Origin: a virus
DNA length: 34,642 nt
Strand: one strand, 5' to 3'
Virus record (IMG/VR): IMGVR_UViG_3300048131_000272
Span: 1 to 34,642 of that record
Below, piece after piece: positions 4,026-22,719 of the stretch. The notes beneath the pieces are model-generated. The model was not told where the DNA came from and ran no database searches. It saw only the letters and a list, made by a program, of their open reading frames with translations. The first letter of the stretch is position 1. Each line of letters opens with the position of its first letter. Both the position numbers and the translations under genes were made by a program.

Positions 4026-4058
4026 ATTTTAACGGCCCGGGCGCGGGGTTGACTTACG
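4026..4058 (-). promoter_or_regulatory. Late promoter copy A, upstream of tailspike
   Basis: Read on the minus strand this is CGTAAGTCAACC (4058 to 4047), a 15-nt spacer, then TAAAAT (4031 to 4026). The 12-mer is identical at four sites in the window, each before a late gene block. The TAA inside the motif also serves as the stop codon of the upstream virion gene. Only 6 nt separate the -10-like element from the tailspike ATG at 4019, so transcription would start at or next to that ATG. Confidence 0.75.
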
Positions 4059-6564
4059 GACCCGCCGCCGCCGAGAGATCGGGGCCGCGGTCGGGCGTAT
4101 CCTCGCCCGGGGCCCACCAGTAGTCCTGCCCCGTTTCGCGCTGGCGCCGCCTGATATTGCGCCGGAACGCTGCCTCTGCATCGGGGTCCAGCGCCTGCCT
4201 CAGATTGTCCTGCACGGCCCTGTCCCAGGCAAGGCCCAGATACCAGATATTCGAGCCGGGCAGATTGTCGCCGATCAGCTTGGCTGCCTCAGAGGCAAAC
4301 TCCGGATCGTCCCCGCTGAGGATCTGCTGGATATTCCCGCCGGTGAGCTTGATGACTTCCGCTCCGAGCTCTACGACCGGCCCGCCAACTGTCATCGGAA
4401 GCGTACCACCATAGCGGTTGACATCGGCAAAGAAGAAATCGCCGTAGATGGCCAGCCCACCGCCCTGCATTACCGATTTTCCCAGAAAGGCCAGGTCCGT
4501 CATGTCGTGCGGGTCGCGCCCGCCCTTGATCTCTTTCATCTGGACAGCCAGCGCGCCGCCAATCGTCGTCGTAAAGACGAGTGCCGACGTATAGGCCGCC
4601 CCCCGCGCGAAGCCGTTTCCGCCCTGCATCATCATCTGGGCGATCCGGTAACCGTGCAGCATCGGCATGGTCGCGGCGAAACTCATGAACATTGTAGTCG
4701 AGCGGGCAATCTCACCCCAAAGATCACCCGGTCGGCTGGTGCCTTTCAACACGGACCGCGAGCGAAGCGTGCCGGACGGCACGGCGTACTCGCTTTCGGC
4801 GTGCAGCATTTCCAGATAGCGGTCAGCAAGGCCGCGGTCGATCGCATCCAGCGCTTCGGGCTCGAGGAAGCCGTCCGGCGACTTCACGCCGCGCATCGCC
4901 TCCCATTCGGCCGGGCTGATATCATAGCGCTGCAGCGTGCGTTGGACGGGAGCAGGCAGGTCGGCATGCGGGCGGTCCTGGAAGTCTGCGAAATCGGCCA
5001 TTGCGCCACGGATAAAGGCATGCCGCCCCGCCCGCGTCCACGGCGTCAGGCCGGACATTGTCAAGGTTGCATCAGCGAGTACATTAGACCAGGCGGACCC
5101 TGCGAAAGTGCCCGCATAGCGCGCCTGCTGGCCGAAAACGCTGAGCGCGCTCTCCTGTATCGCGCCCATCCGGACAGCATCGCGGCGTGATTTGCGGCTG
5201 GCGAACTGGCCGACCATCTCTTTCAGCCAGTTGCCGCTGCTTGTGCCCATGTATTGCCGGGCCATCAGCGAATAGAACGGATCGGTCGCGACGGCCGGGA
5301 TGATGGCAGCGCCGAGAGCCGTCGATGTTTTAAAGTTCCTGATATTGGCCAGATGTGTTGCCCAGAAGTCGTTGTCCGGTGTGTTCACTGCGCCGGTATA
5401 ATGCTCCCACATGGCTTTGGCGCGCTTTATCTTTCCGCTAATATGGCGCTCGGGATCTTTCAGGATCAGGTCGGCTTTTACAAGGCTCTCTTTGCCCAGC
5501 GCGGCTTTTGCCGCCTCGCCCTTCGCGATCTGGCTCATCCATTCGATCGTCGCAGCCGGGTTCGGCCCCAGAACTTCCAGCGCGGCGATATCCTTCGCCA
5601 TGCCGTCAAGATGCCCCATCATCGCGCCGAACGGATCGCCCGCGCCAAACTCGCTCGCATATTCCAGCCAGGCATCGGCGTCCCTGAAGACGAGAAAACG
5701 GTGTTCGGCCCGCTGATTGGCCAGCATGCCCCGGCCGAAACTCTGGCGCGATGGCTCACGCGAGATCCAGCCATCGGTCAATATATTCTCGATCACCCCG
5801 TCCAGCTGGGCATAGACCTGCGCTGGGCCCATCGGCTTGCCGGTCAGGGGATTTTTCATTTTCTCCGGATCGAGCAGCTTGAACAATTTTTCCTTGAATG
5901 CCTGCTGGCTATTGTCATTGATAAAGTTGCGGATCGCCCGGCCATTATGCGATTGCGGCAGGCCCCAATTCTCCAGCTTGCCGATCATCCCGCCGGCTTT
6001 GTTAAAGCGCAGGCGCAGATCTTCGGCGACCTTTCGGAAAGCCCCGGCAAAGGCCCTGGCAGCCTCGTCGGCCGTGTCCTCGCCAAACAGCTCTCGCACC
6101 ATGTTCTGCAGCTTGGCCTTGTTGACCCGGCGATATCCGGCCCCTGTCCGGAAAGTATGCAGCACCTCTTCCATATCGGCCTGCGCGCGGCCAAGCACGG
6201 ACATACGCCTGTTCTGCACGCTGGAGCGGATGCCGGTGCCCTGTCCCTGGTATTCAATCTTGGCCTGCAGGTATTCGCCAATATCCACATTGCCGCTGCC
6301 AGAGCGGAACCGCTTCATCTCGTCCGCGATCTCGCGCGCATTTTTCTTGTTCAGCGCGGCGCGCCATTTCCGGATGGCCTTCTCGGCCTCCATCTCGTCC
6401 CAGACATCGCGTGTCGCCCCGTCATGCGCGGAACTGCGGCCCTCGCCGGACGCCTCGCGCGCCGCCCGCTTCTGGCGAAACGTCTCGCCGATCGCATCGG
6501 CCTCGTCCTCGTCGATGACGCCCTCTTTCAGGGCCTCGGCAATACAGTCCTCGAAATTGCTCAT
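4054..6564 (-). CDS. Large internal virion / DNA-ejection protein (gp16 position)
   Basis: The 836-residue product occupies the place of T7 gp16, last of four consecutive internal-core genes. It is mostly helical, with a charged N-terminal half and a block that I recognise from ejection proteins of other podophages: FRDADAWLEYASEFGAGDPF followed by a Met-Ala-x-Asp-Ile-Ala...LGPNP motif at about residues 295-340. The C-terminal half has hydrophobic helices (around FMSFAATMPMLHGYRIAQMM and GAAYTSALVFTTTIGGALAV) that could cross the inner membrane when the protein is ejected with the DNA. No transglycosylase motif is seen. The ATG at 6564 is chosen because it overlaps the upstream stop as ATGA; an ATG at 6576 is in frame but its only purine-rich sequence touches the start. 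The TAA stop lies inside late promoter copy A. Confidence 0.8.
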   Translation of the reverse strand: MSNFEDCIAEALKEGVIDEDEADAIGETFRQKRAAREASGEGRSSAHDGATRDVWDEMEAEKAIRKWRAALNKKNAREIADEMKRFRSGSGNVDIGEYLQAKIEYQGQGTGIRSSVQNRRMSVLGRAQADMEEVLHTFRTGAGYRRVNKAKLQNMVRELFGEDTADEAARAFAGAFRKVAEDLRLRFNKAGGMIGKLENWGLPQSHNGRAIRNFINDNSQQAFKEKLFKLLDPEKMKNPLTGKPMGPAQVYAQLDGVIENILTDGWISREPSRQSFGRGMLANQRAEHRFLVFRDADAWLEYASEFGAGDPFGAMMGHLDGMAKDIAALEVLGPNPAATIEWMSQIAKGEAAKAALGKESLVKADLILKDPERHISGKIKRAKAMWEHYTGAVNTPDNDFWATHLANIRNFKTSTALGAAIIPAVATDPFYSLMARQYMGTSSGNWLKEMVGQFASRKSRRDAVRMGAIQESALSVFGQQARYAGTFAGSAWSNVLADATLTMSGLTPWTRAGRHAFIRGAMADFADFQDRPHADLPAPVQRTLQRYDISPAEWEAMRGVKSPDGFLEPEALDAIDRGLADRYLEMLHAESEYAVPSGTLRSRSVLKGTSRPGDLWGEIARSTTMFMSFAATMPMLHGYRIAQMMMQGGNGFARGAAYTSALVFTTTIGGALAVQMKEIKGGRDPHDMTDLAFLGKSVMQGGGLAIYGDFFFADVNRYGGTLPMTVGGPVVELGAEVIKLTGGNIQQILSGDDPEFASEAAKLIGDNLPGSNIWYLGLAWDRAVQDNLRQALDPDAEAAFRRNIRRRQRETGQDYWWAPGEDTPDRGPDLSAAAGP

Positions 6565-8918
6565 CGCACCACGCATCCTTTAAATCGTTTCATCACCACA
6601 TCGGCCCGCGATACGTCAGCGTCAGCCGCACGCACCGGCGTCCCATCCGCGCCGGGGACGGTCGCAAACATGTCATCGGTGTTCGGGTCGCGAACCGCCG
6701 GCTCATCACCTGCCCCGGCGATATCGGTCTCGTTTCCGAGATCACGCGGCCCGGCCTCGTCCGGCCCGTCATACACGCGCGGTGGTGGCGCATCCTCGGC
6801 CAGAAGGCTGGCGGCCCCGCCCTCGTCGATCTCCGTGCGCAGGCTGGTGGCGAGATCTCCGGCCGCCTTTGCCCGCGACACCGTGCCATCGGCGACGCTG
6901 GCCGCCGCCTCGTTCAGCTGCGCCGAGATCCGGCCGCGCCGTGTCGCCAGCCGGACAAGCAGCGTCTCGACCTGTGCGGCACTGGCCGCCCGGCCGGCAT
7001 TCTCGCTGCGGTCCAGCTGGTTGCCCGCCGCCTCGATCCGGTCGGCCTCGCGCGACAGGGTGCGAAACAGCGTCTTGTCCTGGCGAAGCTTCGCCGTGAT
7101 CGCCGAGACCAGCTTCATCTTCTCCGGCAGGAGAGACATCTGCAGGGTTTCCATGCCGAACAGGCTTTCCTGCACTTCGATGCGCGCGCCGGCTTCCATC
7201 GCCTCGCGCGTTACGACCTGCGCTTCCAGCTCCGATCGCGGCTTGACCTTCACCATCGCATCGGCGACGGCCCCATGCATCTCGCGCGGGGCGTATCGGC
7301 CGATCACGGCCCCGTGAACCGGGTCGATCACGCCGCCCCGGACAAGGTCATAAGCCCCGTCCGAGAGCCGCCCGATCGCACGCGCCTGGCGCATATGATC
7401 GGAGCTGACAGGCAGGCTGTCATCGATAATGTCGGGGCGGTCGCGGATCGCCTGCGCGGTATCGAGCACGTCACCTGAGCCTTCGGCGATATTCTTCTTC
7501 GAGGCGACGGCCCGCACATCGGCGGCGCTCCAGCCATCGGCCTCGCGCAGCACGTTCGCATTGACATCGATGCGCTCTTCCGCGCCCGACTGGACGAGGC
7601 GGCGGCCAAGCCCGCTGCGCTGGTGTCCGTCAGCGACGATCCGTGTGCCGTCCATCCGTTCCCAGACGATCATCTCATTGGCGAGGATCGGGTTCCAGCG
7701 CTTCACCGCGTAAAGACGCTCTGTGACGCCCTTGGCATCGCCGCCCGCCTTGTACTGCATCGTCGCCGCGTCGGTCGTGAGGGTCATCACGTCCAGCCGC
7801 TGCTGGCTGACCGGCTTGCTCTCGACGTCGAAGGCCGCCCCCGGCCGGAAGGGCGGTGGCTCAGCCATGTTCCGGCCTTTTGCCGGCGGGGTGATATCGG
7901 CCGCTGCGGCGATCGCCTGTTCAGCGTCGGCGTCGTGCATCGCATTCCGGTGACCGGGCGCATCGACAAAGGCCGGGCGTGCATCGTCGGCGGCCTGGTC
8001 AAGCTGCGCTCTGGCCAGCGCGGCGCGGCCTGCCTCGTCCAGTTCCAGCCCATCGAGCTTTCCGGCCGCCGCGACCACGTCAGAGCGCTTGCCAGACAGG
8101 ATCTGCTTCAGTGCGTGATCGTCCGGCAGGGCCTGCAGCCGCGCCTTCGCCGTCCGGAACTCCGGAGATCCGCGAACCGCGCGGTAGCCCGCCTGCCCGC
8201 CGCCTGACAGCACACCGCCAAACAGGGCAGCGAAGGCGGTATTGTTCACCGCGTCGCCAAACGTGTAATCGAGGCCGACATCCTCGTGCCACTTTGCGAT
8301 CGTCGGCTGCATCGCGGCCTCTGTTCCGCCCGAAAGCACGGCGCCGGCAATGGCTGTCCGCAACACGCTGACCGACTGGCCGACAGGCACGGCGCCAGCC
8401 AGCACCTGCGTCGGATCGGTAAAGGCTGCTGAAAAGCCGCCGGCCAGACTGCCGGCCAATGCGGTGGTGCCTGAAGCGCGGCGCCGGGTGTCTTCAAGGA
8501 TGGCGCGCCGGTCGCGCACCAGCTCCATCGCCGCAGACTGCAGATCTGTCTGCGGCAGGCCGGCGCCCTGCTCGGTTCTGCGAAGCTGCGCATACCGTTC
8601 ATTGAAATGCTGGATTGCATCGGCCCGCACGTCCCCGCGCGATCCGCCCCAGGCTTCCGGCGACGGCACAAGCCGCGGTGCAATGTTCATCTGGTAGAAA
8701 CTGAGCCGGAACGGGTTTTCAAGCGTCACGCCGGTCTCGGCCCGGACCTCGTCGATCATCGTATCGGCAGCAAGCTCACCGGCCACGATGCTCCCATTGA
8801 AGGCAGTCGAAGTCCGCGCGTCCCGGTGTACCGCCTCCCACATCTCTCCAAGGCCCGCCACGCCGCCAGACGCGAACGTGATCGTTTCGCCGGACGGCTC
8901 TTCGAAAATGATGCTCAT
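6561..8918 (-). CDS. Internal virion protein with ParB-like (ddrB-ParB type) nuclease domain
   Basis: This 785-residue protein lies in the ejection-protein cluster. Residues 1-340 include a Gly/Ala-rich hydrophobic region (about 150-250: SGTTALAGSLAGGFSAAFTD..., later GGVLSGGGQAGY) that could insert in membranes. Residues 361 to about 520 look like the ParB/Srx-fold domain found in phage polyvalent proteins: an N-terminal strand, RIVADGHQRSGLGRRL (near residue 429) matching the ParB D/N-G-x-x-R box, then SAADVRAVASKKNIAEGSG. The C-terminal region is coiled-coil like. Because internal virion proteins enter the cell with the DNA, the domain would be delivered at the first moment of infection, perhaps to act on host or phage DNA. 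Domain identity is by motif only. ATGA overlaps join it to both neighbours. Confidence 0.78.
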   Translation of the reverse strand: MSIIFEEPSGETITFASGGVAGLGEMWEAVHRDARTSTAFNGSIVAGELAADTMIDEVRAETGVTLENPFRLSFYQMNIAPRLVPSPEAWGGSRGDVRADAIQHFNERYAQLRRTEQGAGLPQTDLQSAAMELVRDRRAILEDTRRRASGTTALAGSLAGGFSAAFTDPTQVLAGAVPVGQSVSVLRTAIAGAVLSGGTEAAMQPTIAKWHEDVGLDYTFGDAVNNTAFAALFGGVLSGGGQAGYRAVRGSPEFRTAKARLQALPDDHALKQILSGKRSDVVAAAGKLDGLELDEAGRAALARAQLDQAADDARPAFVDAPGHRNAMHDADAEQAIAAAADITPPAKGRNMAEPPPFRPGAAFDVESKPVSQQRLDVMTLTTDAATMQYKAGGDAKGVTERLYAVKRWNPILANEMIVWERMDGTRIVADGHQRSGLGRRLVQSGAEERIDVNANVLREADGWSAADVRAVASKKNIAEGSGDVLDTAQAIRDRPDIIDDSLPVSSDHMRQARAIGRLSDGAYDLVRGGVIDPVHGAVIGRYAPREMHGAVADAMVKVKPRSELEAQVVTREAMEAGARIEVQESLFGMETLQMSLLPEKMKLVSAITAKLRQDKTLFRTLSREADRIEAAGNQLDRSENAGRAASAAQVETLLVRLATRRGRISAQLNEAAASVADGTVSRAKAAGDLATSLRTEIDEGGAASLLAEDAPPPRVYDGPDEAGPRDLGNETDIAGAGDEPAVRDPNTDDMFATVPGADGTPVRAADADVSRADVVMKRFKGCVVR

Positions 8919-11191
8919 GGGCTCACCCAGTCTGGATGACGCTCGCTGATGACGGCCTGCAGCTCGCCGGCGTTGAGGATATAGCGACCGTCCGCGCCGT
9001 CGCCGGCAATGAATTGCGGATCGTCGCTATCGGGATTTTTCAGAGACAGCGCGTACCGGTCCTGACCGATACTGACCACATGAGCGCGGCGCAGATCCGC
9101 AAGGCTGACAGGCTCGCCGTCCTCGGTGCGGGGCGCCCCCCCGGCCCTCTCATAATCCTCGATCGTCAACGCCCGGAACATGTCATCGAACCTGTCGGCC
9201 CGTAACCAGTTCGGGGCCAGCGCGGTCGTGCGGCGTTTCGCCCGGCCCATCAGGCCGCCCGATCTGGACGTGTCGCTGACCGCGCCGCCAAACTGCACAC
9301 CGCCGACAAACCGCGCCCCGGCCGCTTCCTGCAGGGACCGCTCATAAAGCTCACCGTCGAAAGGCGCATTCAGTCCGACCCGGCCGATATAGATATCCTC
9401 TGCGACCTTGGTGACACGCGCAGACGTGCCTTTCAGCCGTGACAATGGCCCGGCCAGCAGCTCGCGGGCGATCTCGTCAGTCGTCTCGCCGGTCCCCTCA
9501 TCTTTCAGCACCGGCGAGACACCGGGATTTTCCGACCTCATCTGCTTGCCGCGGCTTGCATCGGCAACGGCTGCAGGGCTGCCGCCGGACAGCATTAGCC
9601 CGCCATAATGGGCAAGGTCGGGCGCCGCGTCGGAAATATCGGCCAGAAGACGCGGCGCGTCATTGCCGGCCGCCCGGATATACGCGCCGGCCAGCGGCAC
9701 CATCTGCAGCGGATCCTCGCGTTCGAGACGGCCAATCTGCGCCTTCTCGTCTGCGGTAAACAGGCCGGCATCGACGCCGTAATGTTCCGAGACCAGGCGC
9801 GCCTGCGCCCGGCGCGAGCGAAGCGTCAGCTCGGCGCCCTCTTCGCTGAGGTCCAGCGGAATGACAGGCGTGACGCCCTGCGCCTGGGCGAAGGCCAGCG
9901 GATCCTTCGACAGACCGCTCCTGAGCGTCGTCAGCGCGTTTTCCAGCATCGTGAGCCGTTCGGCCTGCTCCGGGCTCGCGCCGCCCTGCAGTCCCGCTCT
10001 GTACGCCGTCACTTCGGCCTGGACCGCCGCAGGCGGACGGGTGAGCGCATCGGCATAGATCGACGCATTGGCAACCATCCTGTTGACGTCCGCGACCACA
10101 TCGGCCCCGCCAAGCCGTGCTGCCTCGCCCGCCAGCGCGTTCAGCGCGTCCATATCCGGGGGCACGCCCGCCTGAACGGTCGAATTGTAATCGCGAAGCC
10201 GGCCCCTGATATCGGTCAGCCGGGCCCGCTGCTGCGCGACCTTCGCGCGGCGGTCGGCTTCTAGCGCGCGCACATCCTGCAGCATGTAGCGCTCAAGGCC
10301 TTCGACCTGGTCGAGGCCGAGCGTGCTGGCATGGCCGTCTCCGGTCGCGAAATCCTGCCGGAAGCCTTCGACAAAGGCTGTCTTGGCCTGCAGGCCATCG
10401 GTCCGGTCAAAGGCGCCCTTGATCCGGTTTTCCGCGGCGGCCTCGCCAGCCTTGAGCAGCTGGCGTTCGATATCGTCGAGGCCAAGCGCGCCGGACCGGG
10501 CCGGATCGGCCTCATAGTCGGCGCCGCCAAACTTGAACGCCTCCTGCGGGCCGTGAACCAGCAAGGCTTCGCGGATCGCATCGATCTCGCCTGCAATGAC
10601 ATGGTCGGCCGTCTCGTCCAGGCCGGACTGATAGGCCAGACGTCCAAGATCCTTGACCCGCTTGTCCATGATGCTGACCGCATCGGCGGCGGCGGCCTCA
10701 CGTTCGGTCTGGTCGGCCGCGCGGGCATAGTCCCGGTCATAGCCGAATTTGGCGCGCGCGAAGTCGCGCTCGATGATCGGGACAAGCTCGGGTGCGCGGG
10801 ACTGCAGCGGCTCGATCAGTCGCTTGCGCAGATCCGCGACGCCAGTATTGAAGCCCGTCACATCGCCCGGGTTGGCGTCATAAAGCGTTGCCAGTTCCTC
10901 GCGAAGCGCCGTATCGGTCTGCGTCGACAGGGTCTTGAGACCCGCCTCGTCGAAGGCGGCGCCCCTTATCGTGCCATCGCGGCGCGGGCGAAACTCGGGA
11001 TCCATCCCGGCCTTCAGCCCGGCCTGCTCGCCTTCGGCGGCCGCCGTGCGATCGGCGATCCTGCCGAGGCGCTGGCTGATCGAGCCAAGCGCTTTGGCCG
11101 CTGTCTGCCAGACCTGCCCGCCGGGCCCGGCCGGCGTGCGCTGAAGGCTGTCGCTGACGCGCTGGCCCCGGAATTTGATCTGGTCTCTCAT
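8915..11191 (-). CDS. Internal virion protein (gp15 position), long helical
   Basis: The 758-residue product has no domain I can name. It is dominated by amphipathic helices rich in Ala, Glu, Arg and Asp (for example residues 35-300) with no signal peptide and no clear membrane segment. Lytic-enzyme motifs such as a transglycosylase Glu-Ser box were looked for and not seen. It lies between the gp14-like protein and the ParB-domain protein, the position of T7 gp15, which forms part of the periplasmic ejection tube. Start and stop overlap the neighbours by ATGA (11188-11191 and 8915-8918), so the four core proteins are translationally coupled. The role is inferred from position, size and composition. 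Confidence 0.72.
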   Translation of the reverse strand: MRDQIKFRGQRVSDSLQRTPAGPGGQVWQTAAKALGSISQRLGRIADRTAAAEGEQAGLKAGMDPEFRPRRDGTIRGAAFDEAGLKTLSTQTDTALREELATLYDANPGDVTGFNTGVADLRKRLIEPLQSRAPELVPIIERDFARAKFGYDRDYARAADQTEREAAAADAVSIMDKRVKDLGRLAYQSGLDETADHVIAGEIDAIREALLVHGPQEAFKFGGADYEADPARSGALGLDDIERQLLKAGEAAAENRIKGAFDRTDGLQAKTAFVEGFRQDFATGDGHASTLGLDQVEGLERYMLQDVRALEADRRAKVAQQRARLTDIRGRLRDYNSTVQAGVPPDMDALNALAGEAARLGGADVVADVNRMVANASIYADALTRPPAAVQAEVTAYRAGLQGGASPEQAERLTMLENALTTLRSGLSKDPLAFAQAQGVTPVIPLDLSEEGAELTLRSRRAQARLVSEHYGVDAGLFTADEKAQIGRLEREDPLQMVPLAGAYIRAAGNDAPRLLADISDAAPDLAHYGGLMLSGGSPAAVADASRGKQMRSENPGVSPVLKDEGTGETTDEIARELLAGPLSRLKGTSARVTKVAEDIYIGRVGLNAPFDGELYERSLQEAAGARFVGGVQFGGAVSDTSRSGGLMGRAKRRTTALAPNWLRADRFDDMFRALTIEDYERAGGAPRTEDGEPVSLADLRRAHVVSIGQDRYALSLKNPDSDDPQFIAGDGADGRYILNAGELQAVISERHPDWVSP

Positions 11192-11823
11192 CCGCGCACC
11201 TTGCTGTCGGCAAGAACACCGGCAATCTGTCCGGCGCCCGCGACAGCCCCTGATAACATTGCATCGCTGCCCTGCTGCTTGAGCATGCGTTGCGAATAGC
11301 GTGACTGGAGACGCCGCATGAAACCATTGTCCTGCGCGGTCCGGACGCTGCGTTCGCCCTGGCTGGCCGTTTTCTGCAGGGCATCGCGGGCGCTGCCGCG
11401 TGTCGGATCGACCCCAGCGGCAGAAAAGGCCACCCGGTTCTTCGCAATCGTATCGATCACACGGTCGAGGATCTCGTTGCCCTCTTGCATGCCCTGTATG
11501 CTGGATTGGCGCGCCTCAAGCCCTGCCTGATAGGCCTGGTCTTCAGCTTGCCTCTTTTGCGCCATTCCGGCCGAAAAGGTCGAGAATGCGCTGAGCGCCC
11601 CGCTGGCCAGAGCCAGATTGCTGGCTGTGAAAAGCCCGGCACTCCCCGCGGCCGCGGTGCCAGCTGCCGCTGTTCCTGCTGCAGCGGCGGTGCCTGCAGC
11701 CGCTGTGCCAGCCGCCGCGGTGCCTGCAGCGGCGGTACCGGCCGCCGCCGTTCCCGCTGCCGCTGTCCCGCCTGCCGCAGCGGCACTGCCTGCCCAGGCC
11801 GCAAGGGCTGCTACCATTTCCAT
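11188..11823 (-). CDS. Virion core protein, T7 gp14-like, with GTAAA pentapeptide repeats
   Basis: This 211-residue protein fits the gp14-type internal core protein: a short hydrophobic N-terminus, a membrane-like segment (SNLALASGALSAFSTFSAG, about residues 66-84), a helix with QKRQAEDQAYQAGLEARQ, then ...VAFSAAGVDPTRGSARDAL, a motif typical of these proteins (small hydrophobic plus helical, G-x-x-x-x-x-GS-A-x-D). Gp14-type proteins form the outer-membrane part of the ejection channel. Residues 19-59 are replaced by eight near-perfect GTAAA repeats, one with an extra Ala; this low-complexity insert is not a usual part of the family and probably expands or contracts by slippage. It overlaps both neighbours: 1 nt with the nozzle gene (TGATG type) and ATGA with the gp15-position gene. 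Confidence 0.78.
   Translation of the reverse strand: MEMVAALAAWAGSAAAAGGTAAAGTAAAGTAAAGTAAAGTAAAGTAAAAGTAAAGTAAAGSAGLFTASNLALASGALSAFSTFSAGMAQKRQAEDQAYQAGLEARQSSIQGMQEGNEILDRVIDTIAKNRVAFSAAGVDPTRGSARDALQKTASQGERSVRTAQDNGFMRRLQSRYSQRMLKQQGSDAMLSGAVAGAGQIAGVLADSKVRG
11647..11769 (-). repeat. In-frame 15-bp tandem repeat coding GTAAA units
   Basis: Eight units of about 15 bp encode Gly-Thr-Ala-Ala-Ala in the gp14-like gene; the sixth unit has one extra Ala codon. Synonymous codons vary between units (GGCACAGC, GGTACCGC and others), so the array is not a very recent expansion and protein-level selection may keep it. Confidence 0.9.
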
Positions 11824-15323: not shown

Positions 15324-15381
15324 AAGCCTCGCCTTTCTGTTTTGCTTCTGGAACGGGCCTGCAGGATCCGCAGCGCCGGAT

Positions 15382-15406: not shown

Positions 15407-15416
15407 ACAGGAAGGA

Positions 15417-16277
15417 TTAGCTGGCCGTGTAGGCGGCCGGGTCGATATCGAGCGGCTTGATGCTCTCATCGATATCGAATGGCGTGATGCCTTCGGGCAG
15501 GAGCGGCTTGCAGCCCATCTGGAACCCGGAATTGACGAACCAGAAATCCTTGAGGTTCTCCCAGGTGATGATTGTCTTCTCGCCTTCCAGCGTGGCATGG
15601 CCGACCGCGTTGCGCGCATACTGGAAGCCCCGGCGCAGATTGCCGGTTTTCGGCAGCTTGTTATGCTGGATCCAGTGTTTGCCATTCCAGGTGCGCCGCA
15701 TGGATTTGTTCATCCAGGGCAGGTCCGGTCCGGAATAGTCCGACTTCACATATTCGTCGAACCGCATCAGCTGGCTGTGCATGCGCGGCGAGATCAGCAT
15801 GAAGATATCGTCATCGTCGATATCGGCTTCGGCCTGGATCTCGTTCAGGCTTTCCGAGAAAGCAGGGCTCATGAATTCGCCGCTGCCGCCCCGGACGGTC
15901 TGGCCGCTGGTATTGAGCGCGGTAATGATCTGGTTGTCGGCGGCGCGCGCCAGCGCCTTGGCGGCCGCCTTCTTCAGCTCGTCGCGGTCATCGGCGGCCA
16001 TCTGCGACAGGTCGCGGTGCCGGATGACGGGCGTGACCTTCTTGTACTGGGTGGTGACCCTGACGTTGGAATGCTCGGCGCCCTGCTCACGCAGGTCTCC
16101 GACGCCGTCATAATCATAGGCTTCAAGAACGCCGAGGACATTGAACTGGGCGTCAGCCGCATTCGTGATCGACTTGCGGCGGACCGTGGACAGGAGACGC
16201 CCGCCCTTGTCCTGGTATTTGTGGATCACCCCCTCGACGAATTCTCGGGTGAACCATTCTGGTGCTGAAATGCTCAT
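15417..16277 (-). CDS. Major capsid protein
   Basis: The 286-residue product forms the T=7-type head shell. Recognisable parts are MSISAPEWFTREFVEGVIHK at the start, a ...VTPVIRHRDLSQMAADDRDE stretch, a central helix with AAKALARAADNQII, and ...MLISPRMHSQLMRFDEY, a wording common to HK97-fold capsids of podophages (I-x-S/P-x-x-x-x-x-L). The order portal, Bbp19-like, scaffold, capsid supports the call. The ATG at 16277 is chosen; an open frame extends to a TTG at 16352 but codes atypical sequence. No strong ribosome site precedes 16277, which is odd for an abundant protein. The gene has its own late promoter copy with a leader of about 115 nt. Confidence 0.92.
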   Translation of the reverse strand: MSISAPEWFTREFVEGVIHKYQDKGGRLLSTVRRKSITNAADAQFNVLGVLEAYDYDGVGDLREQGAEHSNVRVTTQYKKVTPVIRHRDLSQMAADDRDELKKAAAKALARAADNQIITALNTSGQTVRGGSGEFMSPAFSESLNEIQAEADIDDDDIFMLISPRMHSQLMRFDEYVKSDYSGPDLPWMNKSMRRTWNGKHWIQHNKLPKTGNLRRGFQYARNAVGHATLEGEKTIITWENLKDFWFVNSGFQMGCKPLLPEGITPFDIDESIKPLDIDPAAYTAS

Positions 16278-16397
16278 TTGCTTTGGACATTGACTGGTGA
16301 ATGGATCAGCCGGGCCGATTGCCAGAGCGGTGAGGCGGGCCTGTCCCCTCAAGGGCCGGTTGCCACCTCGCCCCAGGTCCTTCCCAGGCGAAGCGCA

Positions 16398-16430
16398 ATC
16401 ATAATCCGGCCCCGGTTTGGTTGACTTACG
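16398..16430 (-). promoter_or_regulatory. Late promoter copy B, upstream of major capsid gene
   Basis: On the minus strand: CGTAAGTCAACC (16430 to 16419), a 15-nt spacer, then TATGAT (16403 to 16398). The TAA of the motif is the stop codon of the scaffold gene. The predicted start near 16391 gives a capsid leader of about 115 nt (16278-16391), in which I see no gene. Confidence 0.78.
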
Positions 16431-17391
16431 AGGACATTTCCCGGTTCAGCTTGTCCCATTTTTCACGGAAGGCCTTGTCATAGTTCGGGCTGGTCGTATC
16501 ATAGCGCTCATCGCGCATGGCGGCCTTGACATCATCGACCGTCACGGCCCCGGCATTGGCGCCGGTGTCGCCCATCGCCGCGGTCGATTTCTCGCGCGTC
16601 TTGCCCATAAGATACTCGAAGGCCAGAACACCCTGATGGGTCGATGCGAGCAGCTCAAGCTCGGTCGCAACGCCGTCATCGAGATTGTCTTCCGCCTTCA
16701 TGCGGGCGATCCGCTCATCAACGAGTTTGGCCCGCGCCGCGCCCTTGGTCGCATCGCCGTCGCCCAGAAGTTTCGCTTCGGCCAGAGGGTCGATTGGCGG
16801 TTCGATCAGCCCATCATCGACCATCTTGTCCAGGATGCCGCCGATTACCGACTGGAACTCGCCCTGCGGCAGTCCCGCCTTGTGCGCGACCTCGCGCGCG
16901 ATTTTCAGCGCCGGGTCATCGCCTTCGGTGTTGAACACTTTCGACGCGCCCTCACTGAGCTTCAGCGTCTCGTAGCCGTCGGCCTTTTCGGGAACCTTTC
17001 CGCGGGCCGCCTGGGTATCGCGGTAGCCCTTCAGGGCCGGCGCGATCAGGGCCAGCGTGGCTTCCGGCGTTTCGCCGCGTAAATTCTCCGGCAGGACAGC
17101 GGTATCGAAGTCCCCGAATTTTGGCGCGTCGGTCAGCTTGTTGGTATTGTCCGCCGGCGTCTCCGCCCCGGCCGGCGCCGCCGCTTCGGCTGCCGCCGCG
17201 ATCGCAGCGGGCCCACGCGCAGCAGGTTTCGCGTCGGTCCCCTGCTCACCGGCGCCGGCACCTGCACCAGCACCCGCCGCGCCGCCGCCAGCCGCCTCAC
17301 CGGGCGTGCCATTATCGGCATGGCAAAGAAATGGATTGATTGCCGTATCGGCCTGCATGAACCAGCGTCTGGGGGTCTTCATGAGTGTCAT
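16426..17391 (-). CDS. Capsid scaffolding protein
   Basis: The 321-residue product lies between the Bbp19-like gene and capsid, the usual scaffold slot. It has an Ala/Gly/Pro-rich disordered N-terminus (residues 30-85, with many AGAGAGAG-type runs) and an acidic helical body with LPENLRGETPEATLALIAPA and ...REVAHKAGLPQGEFQSVIGG. The C-terminal third is charged and helical (DDVKAAMRDERYDTTSPNYD, KAFREKWDKLNREM). The ...YD...FREKWD...ending resembles capsid-binding tails of scaffold proteins in podophages. Scaffolds guide procapsid assembly and leave or are degraded before DNA packaging. The start at 17391 overlaps the upstream stop by ATGA; its TAA stop is part of late promoter copy B. Confidence 0.82.
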   Translation of the reverse strand: MTLMKTPRRWFMQADTAINPFLCHADNGTPGEAAGGGAAGAGAGAGAGEQGTDAKPAARGPAAIAAAAEAAAPAGAETPADNTNKLTDAPKFGDFDTAVLPENLRGETPEATLALIAPALKGYRDTQAARGKVPEKADGYETLKLSEGASKVFNTEGDDPALKIAREVAHKAGLPQGEFQSVIGGILDKMVDDGLIEPPIDPLAEAKLLGDGDATKGAARAKLVDERIARMKAEDNLDDGVATELELLASTHQGVLAFEYLMGKTREKSTAAMGDTGANAGAVTVDDVKAAMRDERYDTTSPNYDKAFREKWDKLNREMSS

Positions 17392-17756
17392 GTCTCTTCT
17401 CGGTCTAGGGTTTCAAAATCGCGGATGGCTTTCTCGATCCGGCGCACCGTTTCGTTCTCGCCTTCACGGAAGAAGGCGCGGGCCATCATCTTTTCGGGGC
17501 TGACAGCGAACATGTAGTCGGCGTCGATGACGGCCCGGTCGGTCGTCAACGCTTTCATCCATGCCAGGACGGCCTGACCCATATCGCTGGTAAACAGGGC
17601 GTGGATCTTCGCCAGCTGATCGGTCTGGGCGGTGTTCAGCGCAGACTGGAACGGCGTCTCGCTGTCATCGCCCGCCGGAATATCCGGCAGATCAGTGCTG
17701 ACATCGTCGATGGTCTGGAAAGCACGGCCAAGGCCGCCCGTTGATTTTTCGCTCAT
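17388..17756 (-). CDS. Bbp19-like phage structural protein
   Basis: This 122-residue protein has an acidic, disordered N-terminus (residues 1-35) and a helical C-terminal domain. KIHALFTSDMGQAVLAWM followed later by ARAFFREGENETVRRIEKAI resembles the Bbp19 structural domain first named from Bordetella phage BPP-1. These proteins lie between portal and scaffold genes, as here, and are thought to be minor virion components; their exact job is unknown. It overlaps the portal stop and the scaffold start by ATGA on each side, so portal, Bbp19-like and scaffold are produced from one coupled message. Confidence 0.7.
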   Translation of the reverse strand: MSEKSTGGLGRAFQTIDDVSTDLPDIPAGDDSETPFQSALNTAQTDQLAKIHALFTSDMGQAVLAWMKALTTDRAVIDADYMFAVSPEKMMARAFFREGENETVRRIEKAIRDFETLDREET

Positions 17757-19318
17757 GCCGCTGCCTTTTCGGGGATTTTCATGCCGGCGGCCTGCGCGGC
17801 CATGATCGCGGCGTTCATCTCTTCATTCTGCTTGCGCAGCGCCGCGCGTTCATCCGGTGGGGTCATCAGGCCGCGCTCAATGCCCATCTTGGCCTGCAGG
17901 AAATCGACCAGCTTGTCGTCGCTCATATAGATTTTTGCGGCCTCTGGCCCGACGGTCTGGACGAGGATGCTGTGGAAGTTCAGCGTCTTCTCGACCTCTT
18001 CCATCATCTGCGCTTCAGCCAGCGGCGACAGCACCTGAAGGCGCGCCACGAACTGGTTGATGCTGACAAATTCAGACAGGAGGCCAGCCTGTTCCAGCAG
18101 GTCGATGACCCGCTGGATAAGCGGGATGAAAAGCTCTGAAATCAGGCGCCCGAACGCGCTTGATATATCCTGGCTGAGACGGCGCAGGCGCGCCACGATC
18201 TCGGTCGGCGACCGTACAGCGCCCTGTTCGTCGGGTAGCGGATCATCATACATGATCTCACGCACCTGGGCGCGCAGCTCCTGCAGGACGAGGCCGGTCA
18301 GGTCGAACTGCTCGGGGATGGGCAGGCGTTCCAGCGCCGCACCATTCGGCCCGCCCGTCCGGCTGACCTTCACGATACCGCCGGGCCGAAGCGCCGTGGT
18401 GCGCGGATTGTAGAGATTGTCGTCTGACGTCATCCACGCGCCGAGAATGGCAAAGGCAGCCGCTTTCAGCTGCATCTCGACCGTCTTGTTGAGGGTCTTG
18501 ACGTGAGGCAGGGCCAGCATGGCAGGGCCGCGTCCGCGCTTTTCTCCCGGAATACGGAAGAAGCGCGGCGTGATGAAGGGCGAGGTGCGCAACTCTTCGG
18601 TCACAAGCGCGGCCTGCCCCTCTTTCCAGATCACCTGGAAGTCAAAGGTTTTCGCGCGGACTTTCGCGCAATGGATGAGCAGCGCGATATCCTTGTCCGG
18701 CTCCTCGGCAATGATCTTCGCCAGCTGGCCGGGAATTTCAGCGTCCGGCCAGGCCGTCTCGATCTCGCTGGCCGGGACAGGCATCTCGTAATACCATTTG
18801 GTGATATTGCCCTTGCCATCCTCATCGACCACGATGTCTTCGGCCGAGATCGAGGTAAAGCTGACAATCTCTTCCTCATCGTCGCCCGGGAGGACCAGCA
18901 TCGCCCCCATACCGGCAAACAGGTCGATATACATTTCATCGGCGGCGCGGCTGAACTGGCCGCCATTGAAAACCTGCCAGACAATCTTGGTCGTCGTATC
19001 GAGCAGTCGCTCGATCGTGTCGCGCTGGTTGGCGTCTTCGATCAGCGGCCCCGGAACCAGCTTGAACCATTGCTCGTAATCGGGCGTGATCGCGCGCTTC
19101 AGGCGCCCTGCGCCGCGCGGCGCGGCAGCCACCGCCGTCGCGTCGAAAACCCGCTCGGTGCGCTTCGCGCCTTTTGCCGGGCCGCCATTGCGATCCCCGG
19201 CCCTCGCCCGGTAAGGCATGATATATTCATAGACTTCGCGAAGGTGCGCCCTGTGATGGGCGTCGTCTTCTGTCGCCAGTTTCTGGTAGCGCGAGCAGAT
19301 GGATTGAGCCGATTTCAT
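17753..19318 (-). CDS. Portal protein (head-to-tail connector, T7 gp8 type)
   Basis: The 521-residue product forms the dodecameric DNA channel at one vertex of the capsid and nucleates assembly. Family features are the N-terminal ICSRYQKLATEDDAHHRAHL, EVYEYIMPYRA, the RVFDATAVAAAPRGAGRLKR block (about residues 57-80), and PFITPRFFRIPGEKRGRGPA (about 240-262), typical of podovirus connectors. Another conserved block is ...MYDDPLPDEQGAVRSPTEIV (about 360-385). Length is close to T7 gp8 (about 536). The ATG at 19318 lies 3 nt past the stop of the preceding 63-residue gene, so the two are probably co-translated. The promoter serving this group lies at 19567-19599, inside the 3' end of the GNAT-like gene. 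Confidence 0.94.
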   Translation of the reverse strand: MKSAQSICSRYQKLATEDDAHHRAHLREVYEYIMPYRARAGDRNGGPAKGAKRTERVFDATAVAAAPRGAGRLKRAITPDYEQWFKLVPGPLIEDANQRDTIERLLDTTTKIVWQVFNGGQFSRAADEMYIDLFAGMGAMLVLPGDDEEEIVSFTSISAEDIVVDEDGKGNITKWYYEMPVPASEIETAWPDAEIPGQLAKIIAEEPDKDIALLIHCAKVRAKTFDFQVIWKEGQAALVTEELRTSPFITPRFFRIPGEKRGRGPAMLALPHVKTLNKTVEMQLKAAAFAILGAWMTSDDNLYNPRTTALRPGGIVKVSRTGGPNGAALERLPIPEQFDLTGLVLQELRAQVREIMYDDPLPDEQGAVRSPTEIVARLRRLSQDISSAFGRLISELFIPLIQRVIDLLEQAGLLSEFVSINQFVARLQVLSPLAEAQMMEEVEKTLNFHSILVQTVGPEAAKIYMSDDKLVDFLQAKMGIERGLMTPPDERAALRKQNEEMNAAIMAAQAAGMKIPEKAAA

Positions 19319-19321
19319 CCC

Positions 19322-19513
19322 TCAGACACCAAAACTGCTTGCGCCCTTGGCCGCATAGGACAGGAGGCCTCGCCCCCGGCGGCGGCGTCCGGAAATATTC
19401 GCGACCGCGGCCTTTTCGGCCTCCAGCTCCGATCGCTCATTCTGGGCATCCTGCTGTTGCCGTTGCTGCAGCGCTTCCAGCTTGCGATTGCGTTTACCGC
19501 CACCTCCAAACAT
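19322..19513 (-). CDS. Small charged protein preceding portal
   Basis: This 63-residue product reads MFGGGGKRNRKLEALQQRQQ, continues as a charged helix with AQNERSELEAEKAAVA, and ends GRRRRGRGLLSYAAKGASSF-G-V. Small proteins with this Gly start, coiled middle and GRGLLS end commonly precede portal genes in temperate podophages; no function is established. AGGAG lies 7 nt before the ATG, which is a strong ribosome site. An overlapping frame of similar length (19315-19509) lacks a ribosome site and family-like sequence and was rejected. It is the first gene after late promoter copy C. Confidence 0.72.
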   Translation of the reverse strand: MFGGGGKRNRKLEALQQRQQQDAQNERSELEAEKAAVANISGRRRRGRGLLSYAAKGASSFGV

Positions 19514-19526
19514 GTCAGAACTCCTG

Positions 19527-19937
19527 TCAGCCGGGGATCCAGATCATCCGGATCGTCTGGCGGCCGAGTATAGTCGGCCCCTCCCCGGGTTGACTTACGA
19601 AGCCGACGAACTCTGCAAACCGGCGATGCGCGGGCCGGTCGGCGCGGACATGACAGATGACAGGCAAGGCGTGATCTTCAGCCAGGAGTGTCTGCGCCGC
19701 CGCAAGGGCCAACAGGCGCGCACGCGGAAAGGGTGTTTCGCGGATCAGCATCCACGCTTCCAGCTCGCCCGATCCGTCATCGTAGAGACCGCCAACTGTC
19801 GCGAGCCCATGCTGATCCTCGACAGCGACCATCGCCGTCCGCTTCGCTTGCACGACAAAACGCCGCCAGGCACGGCGGCCGGGCGCTCGCGGCAGCATCC
19901 GCGCCATGTCCTCAAGCGTTCCGGCCCGGGCGATCAT
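19527..19937 (-). CDS. GNAT-like phage protein
   Basis: The 136-residue product looks like a small GNAT-fold protein. It has a strand-rich middle (RTAMVAVEDQHGLATVGGLY, ...ELEAWMLIRE), a helix with RLLALAAAQTLLAEDHALPV, and a C-terminal HRRFAEFVGFVSQ that recalls the A-x-x-x-GF end of acetyltransferases. The acetyl-CoA Q/RxxGxG/A loop is not clear, so it may be a non-catalytic relative. Similar proteins sit between terminase and portal genes in other podophages; their role is unknown. The start overlaps the TerL stop by ATGA. Late promoter copy C is embedded in its 3' end. Confidence 0.6.
   Translation of the reverse strand: MIARAGTLEDMARMLPRAPGRRAWRRFVVQAKRTAMVAVEDQHGLATVGGLYDDGSGELEAWMLIRETPFPRARLLALAAAQTLLAEDHALPVICHVRADRPAHRRFAEFVGFVSQPGEGPTILGRQTIRMIWIPG
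19567..19599 (-). promoter_or_regulatory. Late promoter copy C, upstream of the portal gene cluster
   Basis: On the minus strand: CGTAAGTCAACC (19599 to 19588), a 15-nt spacer, then TATACT (19572 to 19567). It lies within the last codons of the GNAT-like gene, where the motif is read as Val-Ser-Gln-Pro, so coding sequence and promoter share bases. The predicted leader to the 63-residue gene is about 45 nt and contains its AGGAG ribosome site. Confidence 0.78.
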
Positions 19938-21511
19938 ATATCGCTGAACACATCGAAATCGGCCTGGAACCCGTGATCGACGAAATTGCCGGCCGACTGG
20001 TTACGGCGCTGGCGAACCTTGCCCTCGATCAGGCTGTAGCCGAAGAAGCCGGTCACGCCATGCTGCTCAGCGTCCTGGATGTGCGAGGCCTCAGATCGCT
20101 TGTTCGGCGTCGGATCCTCGATCACGCCGCCGGCCGTTTCCCGTCGGCCATATTTGTAGGCCCCGGTCTTGCCCTTGCGGTTGAGCCGGCAGCGTGGGGA
20201 CATCAGGTAAGCCTGCGTATCGCCCTCGCTGGTATTCATCAGCACCCGCGTGGTTTCCAGCCGGAAGCCTTCTAGCTCATTGCTATCGGGCTGCTGGAAC
20301 GTCACGCCGAGCGCCAGTTCCCCGATCATCACCCAGGTCTTTTCCCCGCCCTCGGTATCGGCGCCATAAAAAGCGGACGGGTCAGCCCAGATCTTCAACC
20401 GGCCCGCACAGGGCGAGAGGTGGGGCTCGTCCAGCTTTCGCTGCAGCGCCTCGAAAAACCGTGTCGGCCCGGCCCGGCCGATAAACAGCTCGTCGATGAT
20501 GCGGACATGCGCCGAAGGCGTCACCTGAAAAAAGACGGCCGCAGGCCGCCCGCCATTCACCGTCCCGGCATCGAGCCCGATGCACAGGGGCAGGCGCGGA
20601 TCAACCGCAAAATCCACCTCTGCGACATGGCGGTTCTCGCGGAACTCATTGGCATAGACCGCCTCGCCCGAGATCGCTGCGCCCCATTCGTTCTTCACGA
20701 AGCGCTTGACGTAATCGGGCCGACCCGCATTCATCCGGACCATGTCCTGATAGTAGGTCTCATCGAGATTGTGGAGGTTTTCCGCATCCGGCGCGAGGCC
20801 GCTCGGGAAATCGAACACGTCCATCACTTCCGGCTCCAGCCGCGTGACGAACCGGTCATAGCACCAGTGTTCGACATCGGTCTTGTTCATGTCAAAGCCG
20901 ATATGCTTTTCGTTTCGCCCGCCCGGCACCAGCAATTTCCGGCGTGGATAGCGCCCGATCCGGCCGGAAGCGACCGTGAACAGCTTTTCCGGGATCGAAC
21001 TGATACCGTTGAGGATGATCGAGGTGACCTGGTAGCCGTCCATGAACGCCTCGATGTCGCCATCCGGGACCGCCGCGAACTGTGCATTGAGATCGATCGG
21101 GCCGTAATCGTCTTCCAGCCGCAGGCTGTGCTCGGCAGGCCGGTCCTGACCGCCGGTCCATTTGCCTGGAACCCCGGGATTGGTCTCGAAGTCCACGTCG
21201 TTCCAGTCATCGGCCGCAGGCCGGAACAGTTCCAGCCAGGAGGGGATCGCGGTCTTGTAGAGCTGGCGGTAATTGTCACGCAGGCAGAGAAAAGAATACC
21301 GGCGAACCCCGTCGACGCACATCGGCGCTCGCAGGGCGCAGAACAGCTCTGTAGCAAACATCGTCGTCTTGGCGCACCCGTTCGGCCCGATCATGCCGCG
21401 GATCAGCTTCTCGCTCTGGGCATAGGCCAGCGACCGCGGCCCCGGCGACTTCCAGCTCGCAACGCTGACCTCGCCCTTCAGATCGTGAAGCGATGTGACG
21501 TCGCGGCTCAT
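19934..21511 (-). CDS. terL: Terminase large subunit
   Basis: This 525-residue motor packages DNA. The ATPase region begins with ...KLIRGMIGPNGCAKTTMFAT; the Walker A is GPNGCAKT (residues 42-49), with Ala in place of the usual Gly before Lys. The nuclease domain shows PLCIGLDAGTVNGGRPAAVF (first acidic residue), KIWADPSAFYGADTEGGEK (second region), and near the end SEASHIQDAEQHGVTGFFGY with a further Asp. The ATG at 21511 is chosen; it has a G-rich upstream sequence and overlaps the stop of a doubtful small ORF. An open frame continues to 21583. The protein is close to the usual family size (500-600 residues). Confidence 0.95.
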   Translation of the reverse strand: MSRDVTSLHDLKGEVSVASWKSPGPRSLAYAQSEKLIRGMIGPNGCAKTTMFATELFCALRAPMCVDGVRRYSFLCLRDNYRQLYKTAIPSWLELFRPAADDWNDVDFETNPGVPGKWTGGQDRPAEHSLRLEDDYGPIDLNAQFAAVPDGDIEAFMDGYQVTSIILNGISSIPEKLFTVASGRIGRYPRRKLLVPGGRNEKHIGFDMNKTDVEHWCYDRFVTRLEPEVMDVFDFPSGLAPDAENLHNLDETYYQDMVRMNAGRPDYVKRFVKNEWGAAISGEAVYANEFRENRHVAEVDFAVDPRLPLCIGLDAGTVNGGRPAAVFFQVTPSAHVRIIDELFIGRAGPTRFFEALQRKLDEPHLSPCAGRLKIWADPSAFYGADTEGGEKTWVMIGELALGVTFQQPDSNELEGFRLETTRVLMNTSEGDTQAYLMSPRCRLNRKGKTGAYKYGRRETAGGVIEDPTPNKRSEASHIQDAEQHGVTGFFGYSLIEGKVRQRRNQSAGNFVDHGFQADFDVFSDI

Positions 21512-21771
21512 GCGCCACCCCCGCCCCCGACTGGGCCAGCATTGCGGCGATGCCTTTTCCACCCCGACCCCGATTTGAGCCAACAGGTGCGCGAACCTGA
21601 AAAATCGCCAATCCGGTGGGATCGGTCGGCCACCCTGTACGCGCGCGGCGCGATTTCCGGGGGGCTGTCTGGCCAGAGGCGCGCGACAGGACCGCGGGGG
21701 GTGTCGGACCGATCGAGCCCGCTCGTTAATCCCTGCTTAATGTGCGCTGAGCCTGAAAGGACTGTCATCAT
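21508..21771 (-). CDS. Doubtful 87-residue ORF between terminase genes
   Basis: The frame starts with ATGATG (MMTVLSGSAHIKQGLTSG) and ends overlapping the TerL ATG by ATGA, which is the coupling seen throughout this operon. The translated sequence, however, is rich in Arg, Ser, Pro and Gly with no recognisable fold, and ends PVGGGGGA. It fills a gap of about 300 nt between TerS and TerL that otherwise holds no gene. It may be a real small protein or simply leader sequence. Confidence 0.3.
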   Translation of the reverse strand: MMTVLSGSAHIKQGLTSGLDRSDTPRGPVARLWPDSPPEIAPRAYRVADRSHRIGDFSGSRTCWLKSGSGWKRHRRNAGPVGGGGGA

Positions 21772-21785
21772 TGCGTTTCACCTCA

Positions 21786-21812
21786 TTCCGTCCGACTTTT
21801 TCCGTCCGACTT
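21786..21812. repeat. Tandem 13-bp repeat just beyond the TerS stop
   Basis: TTCCGTCCGACTT occurs at 21786-21798 and again at 21800-21812, 14 nt apart, in the short interval between TerS and the next ORF. Paired direct repeats between terminase genes could be protein-binding sites, for instance part of a packaging site. Confidence 0.7.
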
Positions 21813-21815
21813 CCG

Positions 21816-22454
21816 TTATTTCTTATCGCTTTTCGATACACCGATCCGCAAATTCTGCGGCCGCAGATCCAGCCCGCCCTTCGATCCATCCGTCACGCTG
21901 CCATCGTCAGTGACCTGGGCGAAGACGAGCGGCTTGGTCCCGGCATCCTTGGCCGGCGGCAATGGCGCGTCGGTGAACCGGCTTGCCGCCTTCAGCGCGT
22001 CCTGGATGGCCGCGAAGGCCGCGGCATCCTCGATACCGAGCGACCGCGCCAGCTGCTTTGCCCTGGTCTCCTGAAACGTGCCCATCGACCTGCCGGCCTC
22101 CAGATGCTCAGGCAGGCCATGCAGCGCGGTGGCGACGATCACTTGGCCCGGCGTCGCGCTGAAGGTCCGCTCTGCCCATCGTGCCAGGGCTTCAGACCGC
22201 TTGTTCAGCGCGCCCTTCTTGCGGCCCGCCCGGCCTTTATCAGCCGCCTCAGCCTCCTGCATCGCCGTGATCGCGCCTTCCATCGGATCCGCGCCGCGCC
22301 CATCCCCAGGCCGCCCGTCTCCTGACCGATCGCCACCACCCCCGTGGGACACAGAACACCCACCATTTCCGCCTATTTTATCGGTTTCGCGCTCCGAAGA
22401 CGGCCCGTCTCCGGACTGTCTTGCTGCTGTCTTGTCACTATCCCTTGAATTCAT
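21816..22454 (-). CDS. terS: Probable terminase small subunit
   Basis: The 212-residue ORF lies directly before TerL in transcription order. A central part (about residues 74-110) reads GRAGRKKGALNKRSEALARW and ...TFSATPGQVIVATALHGLP, a wording common in phage DNA-binding/TerS-like proteins (basic G-R-K-G-x-N-K segment and a helical bundle). TerS proteins recognise the packaging site and regulate the large subunit. The first 57 residues are Gly/Asp/Ser-rich and low in complexity, so a start at Met58 (ATG at 22283) is possible; neither start has a strong ribosome site. Two TGTCTTG repeats fall within codons 7-13 of the long version. Promoter copy D lies about 230 nt upstream. Confidence 0.68.
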   Translation of the reverse strand: MNSRDSDKTAARQSGDGPSSERETDKIGGNGGCSVSHGGGGDRSGDGRPGDGRGADPMEGAITAMQEAEAADKGRAGRKKGALNKRSEALARWAERTFSATPGQVIVATALHGLPEHLEAGRSMGTFQETRAKQLARSLGIEDAAAFAAIQDALKAASRFTDAPLPPAKDAGTKPLVFAQVTDDGSVTDGSKGGLDLRPQNLRIGVSKSDKK

Positions 22455-22654
22455 TCATCTTTATCCATCTATAAGACAGAAAGACAGAAAGACAGTAAGT
22501 AAACTCAATGCACAGGCGCACCTGTACACATAAGGCTCTATAGAGCGTCTTTTCTGTCTTATTGTCTTGTGGCCTGTAATTTCAGCGTAAAATCAAGCGC
22601 TTACGCCGACGCTCACCAAGACAGCAGCAAGACACTAGTTTTCGGACTGTCTTG
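22417..22654. repeat. Iteron-like TGTCTT/AAGACA array (ten copies) with 18-bp inverted repeat
   Basis: TGTCTT begins at 22417, 22428, 22555, 22563 and 22648; AAGACA begins at 22473, 22481, 22489, 22618 and 22629. Three copies are spaced exactly 8 bp apart (22473-22495) and two others 8 bp apart (22555/22563). TGTCTTGCTGCTGTCTTG (22417-22434) is the perfect reverse complement of 22617-22634. CGGACTGTCTTG is also repeated directly at 22412 and 22643. The region is AT-richer than its surroundings, lies between replication genes and terminase, and carries no convincing gene. It could be a replication origin, a packaging site bound by TerS, or an operator array. Confidence 0.85.
22535..22606. other. 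Two palindromes inside the control region
   Basis: GCTCTATAGAGC (22535-22546) is a perfect 12-bp palindrome. GCGTAA (22585-22590) and TTACGC (22601-22606) are inverted arms with a 10-nt loop that contains part of the palindrome AAGCGCTT. They lie between groups of the TGTCTT repeats and may be binding sites or DNA-structure elements of the same region. Confidence 0.65.
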
Positions 22655-22685
22655 TCGATCTGCCATAATTCCCACTGCTTCGCAG

Positions 22686-22719
22686 AGTATAGGGTCAGGG
22701 TTGCCCGGGTTGACTTACG
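22686..22719 (-). promoter_or_regulatory. Late promoter copy D, upstream of TerS
   Basis: On the minus strand: CGTAAGTCAACC (22719 to 22708), a 16-nt spacer, then TATACT (22691 to 22686). Transcription would run through the whole TGTCTT array before reaching TerS (ATG at 22454), giving a leader of about 225 nt. Confidence 0.78.

Follow-up and report, generated by a model that had tools for sequence, protein, structure and literature searches.

A 12-mer, CGTAAGTCAACC, that stands four times on the minus strand of an IMG/VR virus record of 34.6 kb (34,642 nt, referred to here as the window) marks what are very probably the late-gene promoters of a temperate bacterial virus. From sequence and comparison, we take these promoters to form a class whose -35 box is replaced by an element private to the phage, and they are likely to be read by a dedicated activator encoded by the phage itself. 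The explanation as a whole, in which late promoters with a private -35 element would be read by an early phage protein, most likely a DnaA-like one, and used by the host RNA polymerase, is favoured here with moderate confidence. No description of such a promoter class was found in the open-access literature. It would explain in concrete terms how T7-like podophages that have no RNA polymerase of their own may time their late genes.

Four copies of one element in the window

CGTAAGTCAACC occurs exactly four times on the minus strand and never on the plus strand; a scan of the whole window that allowed up to two mismatches gave no additional match. Every copy is followed, at 15, 15, 15 and 16 nt, by a -10-like hexamer (TAAAAT, TATGAT, TATACT and TATACT, respectively) that agrees with TATAAT in 5/6 letters. 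Copies, coordinates, hexamers and spacers were all as an earlier note on this DNA had given them. The four sites, P1 to P4, are the following:

22708..22719, minus strand: P1 element CGTAAGTCAACC, at about -40 to -29
22686..22691, minus strand: P1 -10-like hexamer TATACT, spacer 16, upstream of TerS/TerL
19588..19599, minus strand: P2 element CGTAAGTCAACC, within the ORF of the small gene after TerL
19567..19572, minus strand: P2 -10-like hexamer TATACT, spacer 15, upstream of the 63-aa gene and portal
16419..16430, minus strand: P3 element CGTAAGTCAACC, overlapping the TAA stop of the scaffold-like gene
16398..16403, minus strand: P3 -10-like hexamer TATGAT, spacer 15, upstream of the major capsid protein
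4047..4058, minus strand: P4 element CGTAAGTCAACC, overlapping the TAA stop of the phrog_684 gene
4026..4031, minus strand: P4 -10-like hexamer TAAAAT, spacer 15, 6 nt before the ATG at 4019

After random minus-strand 12-mers, a hexamer with at least 5/6 agreement with TATAAT at 15 or 16 nt is found with a frequency of 0.00225, and the chance of finding one after all four copies is about 3e-11. Moreover, the window has no further site at which at least 8 of the 12 letters of CGTAAGTCAACC are followed 14–17 nt downstream by a TA...T hexamer. Identity among the four copies is limited to the 12-mer, ending abruptly on both sides. A sigma-70 scan of the window did not report the four sites, and intrinsic terminators near the promoters were not above chance. 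The two overlaps with stop codons (4047 and 16419), the location of the 19588 copy inside an ORF and the closeness of 4026–4031 to an ATG had been missed in the first reading.

Gene organization around the probable promoters

On the minus strand, the early part of the window is ordered as Cro-like HTH, small early genes, DnaA-like gene, primase (Toprim), protein X, 'hel' (a second primase/helicase-like protein), GapR and P1. From P1 to P3 follow the TerS candidate, TerL, a small gene, P2, the 63-aa gene, the portal, the scaffold-like gene and P3, and from there the capsid, tail tubes, internal virion proteins, the phrog_684 protein, P4, the tailspike-like gene, DUF5675 and a Tad2-like gene. 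The earlier claim that each copy precedes a late block is borne out by this order, as the TerS candidate, the 63-aa gene with the portal, the capsid and the tailspike-like gene were found downstream of P1 to P4:

21816..22454, minus strand: TerS candidate, P1 unit, named from its position, no family match
19934..21583, minus strand: large terminase, P1 unit, distant tblastn matches to annotated TerL genes
19322..19513, minus strand: 63-aa gene, first of the P2 unit
17753..19318, minus strand: portal/head-tail adaptor, P2 unit, phrog_332
16426..17391, minus strand: scaffold-like capsid assembly protein, P2 unit, PF05396
15417..16352, minus strand: major capsid protein, first gene of the P3 unit, phrog_3437
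4054..6576, minus strand: virion structural protein, last gene before P4, phrog_684
1563..4019, minus strand: 818-aa tailspike/fibre-like protein, P4 unit, similar in its N-terminal part to syntenic genes, without family match

The earlier note had also held that no phage RNA polymerase gene is present. This agrees with a negative Pfam RNA_pol search for a single-subunit enzyme, albeit one run without a positive control, and with the finding that all ORFs long enough to encode such an enzyme correspond either to virion genes or to the tailspike-like gene. Likewise, no phage sigma factor was found. Within 29724–30480 and 31930–34320 lie divergent Cro-like (minus strand) and CI-like (plus strand) HTH genes and two more plus-strand HTH genes, and a plus-strand integrase-like gene of the family, named from its position and conservation and with no family match, appears to be cut by the right end of the window. 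The phage is taken as temperate because its relatives sit in chromosomes as prophages, and these relatives indicate that its host is most likely an alphaproteobacterium. No cultured phage close to the window was found, the best named relatives being approximately 33% identical in the portal.

Relatives keep the arrangement and change the word

With the phrog_684 protein and the portal as queries, 20–30 syntenic phages and prophages were retrieved, including prophages of Jiella avicenniae and Bosea lupini. The earlier note had proposed to look for the 12-mer at syntenic positions in relatives and to count its absence against the regulon. CGTAAGTCAACC itself is indeed absent from them, whereas its position, orientation and spacing are kept; since it is the word that changes, absence of the 12-mer is the wrong refutation test. 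The 57 stretches of viral contigs that matched CGTAAGTCAACC, none of them related to the window phage, misled us at first, and a first bipartite scan (8–10-mers, at most one mismatch, -10 close to TATAAT) returned nothing in the relatives.

Private words emerged once the -10 requirement was dropped and words common to the four late junctions of each relative were sought de novo. In about half of the relatives, one word per genome was found in 3 or 4 late junctions, with a shuffle expectation near zero for 11–12-mers in at least 3 junctions. Examples of such words are AAACGTGACA, AAACGTAACACC, AAACGCAACAC, TTGTCGGAACA and ACACATTTGACC, and further loci provided independent confirmation with AAACCGTAACA, AAAAGGTAACA and AATAAGCAACAC. 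Thirteen related temperate podophages or prophages each have their own 9–13-bp word repeated at syntenic late junctions, seven more relatives, from subclades that had seemed negative, have the shorter words GGTTGAC or AATTGAC at an unchanged spacing of 16 nt, and the arrangement is thereby present in 21 phages, window included. Between the copies of one genome, identity is confined to about 11–13 bp and ends just after RAC. One relative, G025, looked motif-positive (GAGTTAACACC) and was left out, its -10s being unconvincing; no common word with this spacing was found in G017, G021, G022 and G032 or in the distant G002, G033 and G034.

The whole genomes of two hosts were also informative. The pattern GAAACATGAC-N16/17-TANNNT occurs four times in the Jiella genome (5.2 Mb) and GACACATTTGAC four times in the Bosea genome (6.1 Mb), in both cases always within the prophage, which would not be expected of a host regulator. 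From these comparisons, the phages seem to keep the places and spacing of their four promoters and to spell the control word differently, as if each had its own key. The supported interpretation is thus still the late-promoter regulon of the earlier note, with its non-TTGACA element at -35 and its implied activator, which the family comparison makes the best reading.

Fixed geometry and the start of the tailspike-like gene

In 14 phages, window included, 57 copies lie on the late strand and one on the opposite strand. Counting the offset from the end of the conserved RAC to the start of TANNNT, the hexamer is found at 16 nt in 33 of the 57 copies and at 17 nt in 11 (44/57 together), at 18 or 19 nt in three, and at 8–15 or 20–26 nt in none. 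Most of the remaining copies have CANNNT at 16 or 17 nt, or a near variant, especially at P1. A host-type -10 thus stands at a fixed distance downstream of the element, as in the MotA-box type of promoter, and the element at the -35 position is not a good sigma-70 -35, which is less clear in the GTTGAC/ATTGAC subclades, where the element looks like a normal sigma-70 -35. The P1 hexamer starts with C and not T in G005, G006, G014, G015, G024, G027, L176 and L182 (CATGAT, CAATCT, CAAGGT and CATAGT), while P2–P4 of those genomes differ. Two P4 copies, about 110–140 nt apart, are present in G005, G006, G014 and G028.

In the window and in G001, G005, G006, G014 and G028, the ATG of the tailspike-like gene lies 6–8 nt after the P4 -10 and opens a reading frame of 364–976 codons; a start codon so placed, with an open frame of at least 200 codons, is met at approximately 3% of random positions. 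As this ATG falls at the expected transcription start, the tailspike-like message would be leaderless. Leaderless messages are common in Alphaproteobacteria, and the sequence at P4 is consistent with a transcript of this kind.

A DnaA-like protein as candidate reader

The protein most attractive as reader of the element is encoded in the early region:

27031..27372, minus strand: candidate activator, 113-aa DnaA-domain-IV-like HTH protein, directly upstream of the primase

Wherever the early region of a relative was covered, a DnaA-IV-like gene precedes the primase, and the C-terminal end of the encoded protein is a helix-turn-helix of the DnaA-domain-IV type. The family profile matches DnaA at 2.9e-6 when compared with the PDB, and in Foldseek the model of one relative's member matches the DnaA DNA-binding domain with a probability of 1.00. 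For the window protein, whose structure model was built on an alignment including the family, the best DnaA matches reached probabilities of 0.69–0.87, with E values of 0.46 or worse, and its similarity to the family by sequence is weak (hhalign P 0.009, probability 4.5%); its position and fold are in accord with the family. Lysogeny regulators aside, the DnaA-like family is the only DNA-binding family present in every relative with the early region covered. In addition, since DnaA boxes are themselves asymmetric 9-mers, a DnaA-like monomer is a fitting partner for an asymmetric element of about 11 bp. Distances between motifs correlate with distances between DnaA-like domains (rho 0.72), but equally with those of the scaffold (0.77) and the tail tube (0.77); the covariation is therefore not specific, and co-evolution beyond shared ancestry is unsupported. 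On the grounds of synteny, fold and universality, we lean slightly towards the DnaA-like protein as the reader; encoded upstream of the primase, it could instead be a replication initiator. Protein X, between the primase and the helicase, was also considered as a regulator and rejected: it is divergent, but has no recognised DNA-binding domain and no covariation.

In several relatives the candidate is associated with a second DNA-binding domain. In L125, L137, L144, L151 and L169, an XRE-type HTH is fused to the DnaA-like domain or directly precedes it, and the two are split in L133 and L147; several of the XRE-associated loci use the shorter late element GGTTGAC/AATTGAC.

Proposed mechanism and other explanations

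In the mechanism that we propose, the podophage would rely on the host RNA polymerase, and its late promoters would be composed of a host-sigma -10 and an asymmetric 11–12-bp private element. Early transcription would yield the DnaA-like protein, which on binding the element would cover about -40 to -29, the place otherwise taken by sigma region 4. By helping or replacing sigma region 4, the bound reader would enable the host RNA polymerase to use the weak late -10s, and the terminase, portal, capsid and tailspike units would fire together after early gene expression. The 3' RAC of the element, at about -31 to -29, is 2 bp nearer the -10 than GAC would be in a canonical TTGACA box, and because of this shorter distance help to, or displacement of, sigma region 4 would be needed. 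We infer that the sites are transcription starts, that the reader activates and that the DnaA-like protein is this reader. More tentatively, the late programme of the whole family may depend on a DnaA-domain-IV-like protein that stands alone and supplants the -35 contact of sigma, with each lineage having re-coded the recognition helix together with all 4–6 promoters, position and spacing staying fixed.

Could the element rather silence the late genes in the lysogen? An asymmetric prophage-repressor operator placed over the late -35, as with P1 c1 or the L5-type operators and stoperators, would share its asymmetry, single orientation and private word with the Cluster A stoperators that diverge along with their repressor (PMC6550527), and CI-like and Cro-like HTH genes are present in the phage. 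Nevertheless, CGTAAGTCAACC is absent (up to two mismatches) from the repressor/cro region at 29.7–30.5 kb of the window, the copies found in relatives stand at late junctions, and nearly all copies are set at a constant distance from a -10, which stoperators are not. Moreover, the weak -10s (TAGCCT and the like) and a -35 spacing that is 2 bp short suggest activation, and we regard such an operator as unlikely. An arrangement with no dedicated reader, namely ordinary sigma-70 promoters whose drifted -35s are kept alike by within-genome recombination or gene conversion, could draw on the resemblance of RAC to the end of TTGACA and on the TTGAC of two subclades. Identity over only about 11–13 bp with a sharp stop is, however, unlike conversion tracts, strong -35 matches are not favoured, and the spacer to the hexamer is consistently 15–16, making this explanation very unlikely.

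As for the origin of the reader, a host-encoded activator or alternative sigma factor would be in line with the host-type -10 and with the lack of a phage sigma factor among the genes found. Bosea and Jiella both belong to the Hyphomicrobiales, yet their phages have different words, and neither host genome has the word or promoter outside the prophage; a host reader is highly improbable. It is possible, if doubtful, that promoters and activator are real and that another phage protein is the reader, e.g., the Cro-like one (29724–30008) or an unrecognised early gene, with the DnaA-like protein starting replication together with the primase. Its gene does adjoin the primase and the covariation is not specific to its domain, but no DNA-binding family other than the DnaA-like one, lysogeny regulators aside, is shared by all early regions covered.

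Comparison with known systems

By analogy, T4 MotA appears to be the closest mechanistic parallel. The MotA box of T4 middle promoters is located 12 ± 1 bp from the -10 and centred at -30 (PMC2988021). With MotA/AsiA, too, an asymmetric phage box of monomeric type stands in for the -35, its distance to a host sigma-70 -10 being fixed, whereas the box of the window family ends 15–16 bp from the -10, serves late genes and varies by phage. Among the annotated genes, neither an AsiA nor a MotA homologue was found.

By protein domain, the closest systems are the activators of gene transfer agents. In R. capsulatus, GafA contains a DnaA-like DNA-binding domain and directly activates late genes of phage origin (PMC6363796, PMC9638019), and GafA of Rhodobacter and GafY/GafZ of Caulobacter share with our proposal the DnaA-like domain, the activation of virion genes, the alphaproteobacterial setting and the host RNA polymerase (PMC6363796, PMC9638019, PMC11150451). 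The DnaA-domain-IV-like domain is found in the phage family, with weaker evidence for the member in the window. In contrast, the DUF6456/sigma-like domain is absent from the phages of the family: DUF6456, the C-terminal domain of GafA, was detected in 0/17 records, with a positive control in Caulobacter vibrioides. Because this domain is missing, we did not file the phages as a GafA system. The sites also differ, that of GafY being at -123 to -113 and that of GafZ between -35 and -10, while the element of the window family is on the -35 position; furthermore, GafA/GafYZ act at one main promoter and the window family has four or more. If the DnaA-like protein is the reader, phage late control would be linked to the DnaA-like domain of these activators.

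Cluster A mycobacteriophages (L5 gp71) have 13-bp asymmetric operator/stoperator sites, mostly in one orientation and with a motif that diverges between phages (PMC6550527). These are repressor sites, tens per genome and mostly not associated with promoters, in contrast to the 3–6 late-strand, mostly promoter-spaced sites per genome in the window family. Podophages of the HTVC010P/MEP301 type, also without RNA polymerase, have a distantly related portal (MEP301 also a related terminase), but their identity to the window phage is at most about 33%. About ten orthogonal promoter words with their candidate cognate readers make a natural series for the co-evolution of DNA recognition, and the words could possibly be used as alphaproteobacterial expression tools.

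Further features of the window

Several additional features were observed. A GapR-like DNA-binding protein is encoded by the phage at 22837–23130, directly upstream of P1 (PF10073, E 4.7e-32), and a protein with a Tad2-like (Thoeris anti-defence 2) domain at 456–986 (Pfam PF11195, E 6.5e-26). Between P1 and TerS, the stretch 22407–22654 holds perfect 18-nt inverted arms (TGTCTTGCTGCTGTCTTG) separated by 182 nt, along with several further TGTCTT/AAGACA repeats, a candidate TerS-binding/packaging site or regulator site; at the equivalent position, G007, G008, G013 and G020 carry ctgtctaactgtctaa repeats. Lastly, three 49-nt direct repeats and a partial fourth at 28500–29285, within the early ORF 28436–29527, are possible replication iterons or a repeat peptide.
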